This document shows, piece after piece, positions 58,066-60,282 of a stretch of 64,000 nt of DNA. Location of the stretch: contig NZ_AP022596.1 of the NCBI RefSeq assembly GCF_010731895.1, forward strand, positions 1,736,001 to 1,800,000, given 5' to 3'. Numbering within the stretch: position 1 is the stretch's first letter; every line of letters begins with the position of its first letter. This DNA is from Mycolicibacterium helvum (GTDB lineage Bacteria > Actinomycetota > Actinomycetes > Mycobacteriales > Mycobacteriaceae). A program made the position numbers and the translations under genes. The notes beneath the pieces were generated by a model. That model worked only from the letters and a program-made list of their open reading frames with translations, had not been told where the DNA came from and did no database searches.

Positions 58066-58332
58066 CTATAGCCCGGGTGTAGCGAACACGAAGAGTGCCA
58101 TGAAGGCGACGTTGATGAAGAACGCGGCTTCTACGAGGCCGACCGTGATCAAGAATGGTGTGAACATGCGGGATTGGGCTTCGGGCTGGCGGGCGACTCC
58201 CGCGACGAGTTGCGCGCCGGCCATGCCGTCACCAATTCCGGCTCCGATCGCGCCGCCGGCCATCATGACTCCACCGCCAAGGAGTCCTCCGGCGGTGATG
58301 ATCGCCTTGACGATTTCGGGATCTGCGGCCAT
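58066..58332 (-). CDS. orphan F-type ATP synthase c subunit (AtpE-like)
   Basis: 88 residues, two membrane helices. It closely resembles mycobacterial AtpE: GGGVMMAGGAIGAGIGDG and VARQPEAQSRMFTPF, with the ion-carrying Glu68 in TVGLVEAAFFINVAFMALF. No other ATP synthase gene is nearby. Against the M. tuberculosis protein as I recall it, the residues equivalent to Tyr64, Phe54 and Leu68 are Phe71, Leu61 and Val75. Tyr64 is a contact of diarylquinolines, while Asp28 and Glu61 equivalents are kept. AGGAGG precedes the ATG and overlaps the stop of the glycosyltransferase gene, nine bases upstream, so it is expressed from that operon. Confidence 0.93.
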   Translation of the reverse strand: MAADPEIVKAIITAGGLLGGGVMMAGGAIGAGIGDGMAGAQLVAGVARQPEAQSRMFTPFLITVGLVEAAFFINVAFMALFVFATPGL

Positions 58333-58341
58333 GGCGTCCTC

Positions 58342-59592
58342 CTAGTGAGTGGATTGGTGGAGCAGGTTTTCGACAGTGTCGACTACGCGTGCGGCACCGT
58401 CCTCGCCAGTGATACGCGCGGCGAGTTGCTTTGTCTTATTCGCGATTTGGTGGTCGGTGACGGCCGCGCGGATGGCGTCGGAGAGCTTGTCTGCGGTCAG
58501 TGCGCGTTGCGGGATCGTCGCGGCACTGGCACCGAGGTCGCGTAAGCGCCGCGCCCAGAAGGGTTGATCTCCGACGGGCCCGGGTAGGGCGATGGTAGGG
58601 ACGCCGGAGCGCAGGGCGGCGGCGGTGGTCCCGGCGCCGCAGTGATGGGCGACGGCGGCCATTTGAGGGAATAGCCAGTGGTGGGGTGCTTCGCCGATCG
58701 TGAGGACGTCGTCGCCGGATATCTCGAGGCCTGCCCACCCGGCTTGGACGACACCACGCGTACCCGCCTGCCCCAGCGCACCAGCAATGATGAGGGCCAG
58801 CTGTTCGGCACGCGGTGCGGTGATCACGGTGCTGCCGAGGCCAATGAACACCGGGGCTGGGCCGGCGGCCAGGAAATCGGTCAGCGCCTGCGGTGGCTGC
58901 CATCCCGGTGTCGGCGGCGGCCACCAGTACCCCACGACCTGCAGGTCGGCCCGCCAATCGGCCGGTCGCGGGAGGAAGGTGGGCGAATAGCCGTGCAGGA
59001 TGGGCCAGTTCCCCAGAGTGCGCCGACGTCGTAGCGCCCGCGCCGAGATCTTGGGCAGCCCGAGGTCGCGACGGAACCCGGCGACGACCCCGCCGTAGAG
59101 GCGGTCGATGACCCACCCGGCGGTATCGGCCGCCGCCCGGTTACCCATGGCGCCCATGGACCAGGCGCCCAGCACAGTCGGCGGGTAGGCGGCCGTGGCC
59201 GACAGCGGCTGCAGTCGCACCCCGAGCGACGGAATTCCTTTGGCTTCGGCGAGCGGATGTCCAGCCAATTCCGACAATGGCGACAGCAGCAGGATGTCGG
59301 CGGGTATATCGCTCAACGCGTCCAGAATTAACTGACCTGTTTTGCGCACTCCTCGGGGCGTGAAGATCGCGGCGAGAGTCTCTCTTGAGGTCGCGTCGGC
59401 GTGATCGATACCTGGGGTGAAGTCAGCGGGTAGCTCACAAAATTCCAACCCACACTCCGTGATCAGGCCGGCAAACGGCGTGTACGCGGCCACCACGACC
59501 CGGTGCCCGGCTTTCTGCAGGGCCACCCCCACCCCTGCAAGGGGGGCGACGTCGCCATGGCTGCCGACGGCGGCGATCGCCACGGTGCTCAT
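58342..59592 (-). CDS. GT1-family glycosyltransferase (sterol/macrolide type)
   Basis: 416 residues of the GT-B fold. The N-terminal AAVGSHGDVAPLAGVGVAL and the C-terminal nucleotide-sugar block HHCGAGTTAAALRSGVPTIA then GPVGDQPFWARRL are typical of GT1 enzymes. This group includes the mycobacterial Rv1524/Rv1526c type and macrolide- or sterol-glycosylating enzymes. The first Gly of the usual HHGGAG is Cys. It transfers sugar from an NDP-sugar to a small hydrophobic acceptor. It overlaps the TetR gene by ATGA and runs into atpE, so all three are coupled. The acceptor is unknown. Confidence 0.9.
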   Translation of the reverse strand: MSTVAIAAVGSHGDVAPLAGVGVALQKAGHRVVVAAYTPFAGLITECGLEFCELPADFTPGIDHADATSRETLAAIFTPRGVRKTGQLILDALSDIPADILLLSPLSELAGHPLAEAKGIPSLGVRLQPLSATAAYPPTVLGAWSMGAMGNRAAADTAGWVIDRLYGGVVAGFRRDLGLPKISARALRRRRTLGNWPILHGYSPTFLPRPADWRADLQVVGYWWPPPTPGWQPPQALTDFLAAGPAPVFIGLGSTVITAPRAEQLALIIAGALGQAGTRGVVQAGWAGLEISGDDVLTIGEAPHHWLFPQMAAVAHHCGAGTTAAALRSGVPTIALPGPVGDQPFWARRLRDLGASAATIPQRALTADKLSDAIRAAVTDHQIANKTKQLAARITGEDGAARVVDTVENLLHQSTH

Positions 59593-60218
59593 TGCCCGCT
59601 GCTCACGACGCGTCCGAAGATCTCGACCAGGTCTTCGCCGTAACCTCGTGCGTCATAACCGGGTTCGCGCAGAATTTTCTCCACCACGGAGTTGACGGCT
59701 CCGCGAACCGCCATCGCCGTCGATTCAAGGGGAAAGTCGCCGAACTCGCCGTTGCGCTGCCCGGCAGCCAAGATTGCCATGGGATCGAGCACGGTCAGCT
59801 GCTCAGCGACCTCCGGGCTAAGTCCGAGCTCATCGAAGCGCCGTCCGTCGCCAGGCGCAAAGTTCGTGGCCGTCGAGGTCAGCGCTAGAAGCGCAGCTCG
59901 GTGCGTGCCGAAGTATTCGATGCAGGAGCGGATGTAGGCGTTGAGCTTGCCTGTTGCGGTGGTCTCGGCATCCAGCGCCGGGGCCACCAGCGCAAGCATC
60001 GTTCGGTACATGTGCTCGACGATCGCGTCGACGAGGTTGTCCTTGCTCCCGAAGTGGTAGAGCACCGCACTCATCGCGATACCCACACGATCCGCAATCT
60101 TGCGGATCGACGCCTGTGGGTAACCCACCTCGGCGATCACTTCGATCGCGCAGGCCACGATCTGCGCCTTACGCGCAGTCCGGGTGAACGACTCAGGCCG
60201 CTCGTCCTTGGATCCCAT
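59589..60218 (-). CDS. TetR-family repressor, first gene of the GT-AtpE operon
   Basis: 209 residues from ATG 60218. The HTH reads ASIRKIADRVGIAMSAVLYHFGSK. The core has the typical all-helical TetR form. A TTG at 60245 would add nine residues but lies too close to the TACTAT -10 (60253-60248). A nested palindrome (60258-60282) sits just upstream, so autoregulation with the downstream glycosyltransferase and AtpE genes is likely. Confidence 0.88.
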   Translation of the reverse strand: MGSKDERPESFTRTARKAQIVACAIEVIAEVGYPQASIRKIADRVGIAMSAVLYHFGSKDNLVDAIVEHMYRTMLALVAPALDAETTATGKLNAYIRSCIEYFGTHRAALLALTSTATNFAPGDGRRFDELGLSPEVAEQLTVLDPMAILAAGQRNGEFGDFPLESTAMAVRGAVNSVVEKILREPGYDARGYGEDLVEIFGRVVSSGQ

Positions 60219-60257
60219 AAACCGAACATAGATCGGCCAAACCAAGAATAGTAGAGG

Positions 60258-60282
60258 TGATCTAATATCAGATCATCTGATC
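60258..60282 (-). promoter_or_regulatory. nested TetR operator upstream of the TetR-GT-AtpE operon
   Basis: TGATCT-N6-AGATCA (60258-60275) overlaps GATCA-TC-TGATC (60271-60282); both are perfect palindromes built from the same TGATC unit. The region is A/T-rich in contrast to its surroundings. A TACTAT -10 follows on the operon side. Confidence 0.65.

Follow-up and report, generated by a model that had tools for sequence, protein, structure and literature searches.

The 64,000-nucleotide stretch of Mycolicibacterium helvum contig NZ_AP022596.1 from position 1,736,001 to 1,800,000 (hereafter the window) carries a three-gene operon that encodes a TetR-family repressor, a GT1 glycosyltransferase (GT) and AtpE2, a second c subunit of the F-type ATP synthase. 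Our analysis shows that this operon is real, conserved and regulated. Based on comparison of the sequences, we give somewhat better than even chances to the proposal that it is an inducible defence against a natural c-ring inhibitor, in which the target would be replaced and the inhibitor modified.

The operon and its second c subunit

The genes lie on the minus strand in the order TetR, GT (joined by an ATGA overlap) and AtpE2 (after nine bases), as follows:

58066..58332, minus strand: atpE2, second copy of the F-type ATP synthase c subunit (88 amino acids; PF00137, NCBIfam PRK05880)
58333..58341, minus strand: nine-base gap with the atpE2 ribosome-binding site (from sequence; AGGAGG before the AtpE2 ATG)
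58342..59592, minus strand: GT1 glycosyltransferase gene (416 amino acids; Pfam domains)
59589..60245, minus strand: TetR-family repressor gene (218-amino-acid frame; PF00440)
60258..60275, minus strand: predicted TetR operator TGATCTGATATTAGATCA (sequence motif; a second GATC repeat overlaps just upstream)

This packing and the identities of the genes had been proposed in an earlier note made from the sequence alone; all its coordinates were confirmed, and the TetR_N, GT1-type and ATP-synt_C domains all score above their Pfam cut-offs. The open frame of TetR starts with TTG 60245; ATG 60218 is the more likely start, since it gives a better fit to the TetRs of relatives. The protein has the TetR_N domain (PF00440, 45.7 bits, cut-off 24), and its own promoter bears a palindromic operator, as expected of a TetR repressor. 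AtpE2 scores 40.8 bits against ATP-synt_C (PF00137, cut-off 24), also exceeds the NCBIfam PRK05880 cut-off, and has the ion-binding Glu, the GxGxG helix and the RQP loop of an F-type subunit c.

The genome is a single contig of 6,400,811 bases, in which a PF00137 search identified two c subunits, AtpE2 and the AtpE of the regular atp operon. This operon, atpI-atpB-atpE-atpF, is located at 706 kb, 1.09 Mb from AtpE2, which excludes the possibility, raised in the earlier note, that the window holds the only atpE of the genome. AtpE2 and the main AtpE are identical at 45 of 56 aligned residues. The arrangement is that of a duplicated target, with a diverged extra atpE alongside an intact ordinary copy in the atp operon.

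In a tree of 61 c subunits over 67 columns, whose inner forks are weak, the AtpE2s form one clade (support 97/89) of 26 distinct AtpE2s of known context and 11 proteins from the protein search, some of which carry the names Gordonia, Tsukamurella and Antrihabitans. With these 11 proteins in the tree, an approximately unbiased (AU) test rejected a grouping of the 26 context-checked AtpE2s only (p 0.0135), as expected because the further members fall inside the AtpE2 clade. AtpE2 is under purifying selection: the ratio of nonsynonymous to synonymous substitution rates (dN/dS) is 0.02-0.09 between the window's atpE2 and four relatives and 0-0.14 for other correctly framed atpE2 pairs, with 0.05 for one main atpE pair.

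Using the residue numbering of M. tuberculosis AtpE, the window's AtpE2 carries the changes F54L, Y64F and L68V and keeps the ion-binding Glu; the correspondence of its residues L61, F71 and V75 to positions 54, 64 and 68, claimed from the sequence alone, was correct. Helix-2 positions 54, 58, 63, 64 and 68 are changed in 13, 14, 22, 20 and 25 of the 26 distinct AtpE2s, respectively, and no AtpE2 is unchanged at all five. The 21 distinct operon AtpEs, a sample from outside the four species with a natural A63M in AtpE (M. xenopi, M. novocastrense, M. shimoidei and M. flavescens; PMC5817190), show no change at any of these positions, and eight further main sequences agree. F54L and G58S occur together in one AtpE2, F54L alone in 12 and G58S alone in 13. 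Glu61 is retained in all 26, and both the GAIGAGIGDG motif of ring formation and the RQP motif of the loop are kept. We rejected N33A/S, A34Q and S37A as AtpE2 alterations; such residues are probably ancestral, because they also occur in main AtpEs from Gordonia, Antrihabitans and Williamsia. Position 28 is N instead of D in two of the 26 AtpE2s and in two of the 21 operon AtpEs. Main AtpEs with N28 (GIGNG), which in M. tuberculosis is a bedaquiline-resistance variant, were observed in the atp operons of Gordonia soli (L243, 5288-5539) and Tsukamurella tyrosinosolvens (L124, 6902-7147), and the AtpE2 of locus L121 also has N28.

The available text of PMC11672644 lists E61, L59, A62, A63, Y64, F65, I66 and L68 as contacts of the c-only bedaquiline site. 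In the accessible part of PMC6541270, G58, A63 and L68 are modelled within 2.5 Å of bedaquiline, and D28N and A63V are given as clinical bedaquiline-resistance variants. According to the portion available of PMC8249445, oligomycin binds at a site that overlaps that of bedaquiline, and venturicidin mutations lie near the carboxylate.

Distribution and possible movement of the cassette

A profile of 14 AtpE2s, compared with 396 genomes of the genus and with loci accepted at 147 bits or more, identified 36 AtpE2 loci in 33 genomes; the next match scored 141.7 bits, and the lower ones that were checked belong to the atp operon. A search of 401 genomes for the family (E <= 3e-41) also reached other genera, at 16 places; the 15 examined, all except that in G636, comprise nine main atp operons and six AtpE2s. 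Contexts within the genus were assigned by tblastn and open frames:

TetR-GT-AtpE2: 16 of 36 loci in the genus; L271, L273 and L276 outside it
TetR-GT-AtpE2-GT: 9 of 36 loci
TetR-AtpE2-GT: 3 of 36 loci
TetR-AtpE2, no GT: 2 of 36 loci
MerR-AtpE2: 2 of 36 loci in the genus; L275 outside it
AtpE2 without TetR, GT or MerR: 4 of 36 loci
Solitary AtpE2 with a TetR-type operator: outside the genus, L242 (Gordonia soli) and L272

TetR and GT together thus accompany AtpE2 in 28 of the 36 genus loci and TetR in 30, so that the gene trio is conserved in other genomes, as the earlier note required of its proposal. One GT is incomplete in each of two of the 28 loci (the upstream GT in L069 and the downstream GT in L109), and two places with a broken or partial AtpE2 beside GT genes, L071 and L072, were left out of the count. 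A narrower search for AtpE2, in 150 genomes from the order (E <= 1e-36), found none beyond the genus; its lone outside match, in G472, is a main atp operon. In genome G032 we also observed a second atpE of the main type (L047, 7100-7651); neither atpB nor atpF was found in the stretch examined.

The identity of the GT and TetR to the window's proteins drops to about 40-45% across relatives. The cassette is judged from its surroundings to have moved or been gained repeatedly, because none of the tested loci of relatives, not even L122 with its 99%-identical AtpE2, showed the window's flanking genes, and because three genomes hold two different AtpE2 loci each. Spread by plasmids or phages was rejected in the collections searched: no phage record matched, and the single matching plasmid record, Tsukamurella NZ_LR134452.1, contains a complete atp operon whose AtpE is of the main type. 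This record (L124), titled Tsukamurella plasmid 10, looks like a piece of chromosome. One M. peregrinum strain (L134, compared with L067) carries TetR-GT but not AtpE2, and its GT closely resembles the one in G021; this looks like a recent loss of AtpE2 and of one GT.

Seen from the GT, the association is looser: AtpE2 adjoins it in seven of the 80 GT loci kept from a scan of named genomes. In a GT tree of 53 selected rows, the AtpE2-linked GTs are located on several deep branches, interspersed with unlinked ones, and the label changes seven times between linked and unlinked, at least five of these changes being forced by well-supported branches. TetR-GT may be the older pair, which AtpE2 would have joined or left more than once.

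Between dnaK and the operon (window positions 55418-57823) lie genes for an AcpM-like acyl carrier protein, a flavin adenine dinucleotide (FAD)-dependent oxidoreductase and a divergent TetR, none of which was found at the relatives' AtpE2 loci tested. A role in anti-phage defence was rejected, as the three operon proteins have no PADLOC match.

Regulation and the glycosyltransferase

The TetR operator claimed in the earlier note was borne out: it is present before the gene, and regulation of the antibiotic-sensor type was found at other AtpE2 loci. The TGATCTGATATTAGATCA motif also precedes TetR in L122, L034 and L118, with variants elsewhere. Allowing up to two mismatches, the 6.4-Mb genome contains one further copy, inside another TetR coding region, so that the operator is its sole intergenic site, and a wider TetR regulon in this genome was rejected. 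The operator layout upstream of TetR has two flavours, GATC in the window's group and GACC/GGTC, overlapping the start codon, in the others; similar TetR-type sites lie directly upstream of the solitary AtpE2s of L242 and L272.

Other AtpE2s are preceded by unrelated regulators. In M. wolinskyi (L116), the same-strand gene before AtpE2 encodes a MerR whose TipAS domain, which recognizes antibiotics, scores 45.8 bits (cut-off 23.8); the MerR of L275 is 65% identical to it, and that of L036, which is split, 71-76%. In L036 (3253-10060), a Mutator-family transposase splits this MerR gene upstream of AtpE2, and tyrosine-recombinase genes lie downstream. Just upstream of the solitary AtpE2s of L120 (6259) and L121 (6366) is the sequence TACTAC-N5-GTAGTA, which we take to resemble BlaI sites. 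A pattern search found no such motif in the 12-kb stretch with the main atp operon of the window's genome (L049). According to the available text of PMC12565901 and PMC5874750, BlaI is a repressor of the mycobacterial main atp operon. The association of unrelated regulators with one and the same spare c subunit suggests that AtpE2 is made on demand and that some of the signals are antibiotics.

The GT matches the Pfam families EryCIII-like_C, Glyco_transf_28 and UDPGT, all above cut-off. Among solved structures, the best profile scores are 231 bits for a sterol 3-beta-glucosyltransferase and 151 bits for GtfB, which acts in glycopeptide synthesis; oleandomycin glycosyltransferases score 47-55 bits. 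Its only near full-length NCBIfam match is Rgt (107.9 bits, cut-off 800), and it also falls below the cut-offs of MGT (67.6 vs 260), Mgt (44.5 vs 700) and OleI (36.3 vs 700); no score above cut-off for Mgt, OleI or Rgt places it among the GT1s that inactivate macrolides or rifamycins. Judged from these profiles, its acceptor is likely to be bulky and hydrophobic, and a macrolide is possible.

Interpretation and significance

In the mechanism that we propose, TetR would sit on the operator recognized by its sequence and release it on binding the inhibitor or a related molecule. The GT, whose enzyme family is established, would add a sugar to this inhibitor, while AtpE2, made at the same time, would replace AtpE in the c-ring; the pocket around Glu61, with the substitutions observed, would then fit the inhibitor less well.

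Several observations weigh against this proposal. The closest relatives of the GT are glycosyltransferases for sterols, those for macrolides being more distant; in eight of the 80 GT loci, the examined stretch has TetR-GT and no AtpE2; and in four of the 36 genus loci AtpE2 is accompanied neither by TetR/GT nor by MerR. The AtpE2 of L275, of the MerR type, differs at the five helix-2 positions by F54L only. The earlier note had placed the substitutions around the drug site, and they appear concentrated on the side of helix 2 that borders the drug site of the c-ring; the enrichment is weak and threshold-dependent, with four of the five recurrent positions in a contact set of nine, taken from the available text of the sources, among 27 helix positions (hypergeometric P 0.030), and P 0.23 when every change is counted. 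Finally, the published bedaquiline minimal inhibitory concentrations (MICs) of M. cosmeticum, M. peregrinum, M. wolinskyi, M. chelonae and M. franklinii are 0.007-0.062 µg/ml (PMC5817190), and for each of the five species some strain or assembly has yielded an AtpE2 sequence. These are values for uninduced strains that are not proven AtpE2 carriers and may be without AtpE2, because one M. peregrinum genome (G537) has the main AtpE only. Because species that bear AtpE2 have such low MICs, AtpE2 probably does not confer constitutive bedaquiline resistance. The minimal bactericidal concentration is >2 in several of the five species, and likewise in M. smegmatis and M. phlei (PMC5817190).

AtpE2 could instead serve as a variant rotor subunit by which proton binding or transfer is retuned when the membrane is stressed (low proton-motive force, pH, uncouplers), with TetR sensing the stress and the GT modifying a lipid or the stress-causing toxin. 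The changed positions surround Glu61 and so would also face subunit a, and the BlaI-like motif stands before two solitary AtpE2s while BlaI represses the main atp operon; nevertheless, we regard this explanation as unlikely, as it leaves the repeated GT1 link and the MerR-TipAS sensor unexplained, and AtpE2 retains Glu61 together with the ring motif around it. A decoy, in which free or side-assembled c subunits would soak up the inhibitor outside the working enzyme, is a role that an excess of a short membrane protein could play. It is very doubtful here, since a decoy should preserve the drug site, whereas AtpE2 alters that site and keeps the GAIGAGIGDG and RQP motifs.

The alternative offered in the earlier note, a lipid or sterol-like GT operon with an unrelated duplicated atpE, would agree with the sterol glucosyltransferases being the nearest relatives of the GT and with the TetR-GT loci that are without AtpE2. 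It is quite improbable, because 28 of the 36 loci keep the genes side by side in one block; AtpE2 also accompanies TetR-GT in other genera, and the linked GTs are spread over several deep branches of the GT tree. That AtpE2 is a decaying duplicate without function, as might be concluded from the two genomes in which the copy is broken or partial (L071 and L072), has a negligible probability, being contradicted by the dN/dS of 0-0.14 and by one supported clade across genera.

Returning to the inducible defence, the occurrence of loci with only MerR-AtpE2 or operator-AtpE2 suggests that a spare subunit may be useful without the GT. We see evenly balanced chances that a Mycobacteriales family of drug-inducible spare c subunits, under TetR with GT, MerR-TipAS or a BlaI-like motif, remodels the rotor on sensing a natural c-ring poison. 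Resistance by a duplicated insensitive target is known from extra isoleucyl-tRNA synthetase, PBP2a and gyrase copies. The operon likewise has an extra diverged target copy in a regulated block; unlike those targets, it concerns one subunit of a multi-subunit rotor, which would need swapping within the assembly. As in natural and acquired bedaquiline resistance by AtpE substitution, exemplified by the A63M of the four species named above and by D28 and A63 variants, the same c-subunit pocket is changed, including position 63 (PMC5817190; available text of PMC6541270), but there the sole atpE is altered, whereas here a regulated extra paralogue is altered and the main copy is unchanged. The GT belongs to the same superfamily as the drug-inactivating GT1s (Rgt for rifamycin, Mgt, OleI); unlike them, it is far under the curated cut-offs and is encoded with a target paralogue. 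Photobacterium profundum atp1/atp2 also has a second, regulated atpE, within a whole second ATPase gene set as described in the accessible part of PMC10054830, whereas here the c subunit only is found, with a GT and a repressor. No earlier description of such an operon was found in the literature searched, which covers few subscription journals.

The paralogue also bears on resistance prediction. According to the available text of PMC6541270, a published bedaquiline-resistance predictor used 54 'non-resistant' variants from the AtpEs of 23 susceptible species. Seven of the eight such variants named in that text (I11L, N33A, A34Q, A45S, G58S, A63T and L68V; the exception is L15T) are residues of the Mycobacteroides AtpE2s P0123, P0128 and P0132, and S45, S58, T63 and V68 occur in none of the 21 operon AtpEs. 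The four training variants that the text gives as misclassified (G58S, A63T, L68V and N33A) are all among these seven. From these matches, the predictor probably took the AtpE2 paralogue for the susceptible AtpE target, which is a likely data problem. Typing of atpE by polymerase chain reaction with atp-operon primers, as in PMC5817190, is not expected to read the paralogue, and standard MICs may leave the operon uninduced when bedaquiline-class drugs are tested in non-tuberculous mycobacteria.

If the proposed defence is true, the operon would point to undiscovered natural c-ring inhibitors, and its sensors could be used to find them; if the family of spare subunits is also as we propose, c-ring poisons would be common in soil. 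An inhibitor-insensitive subunit would then be built into the ATP-synthase rotor on demand, and such remodelling would amount to a so far unrecognised route of intrinsic resistance or tolerance that opportunists, for example those of the M. chelonae group, would share.
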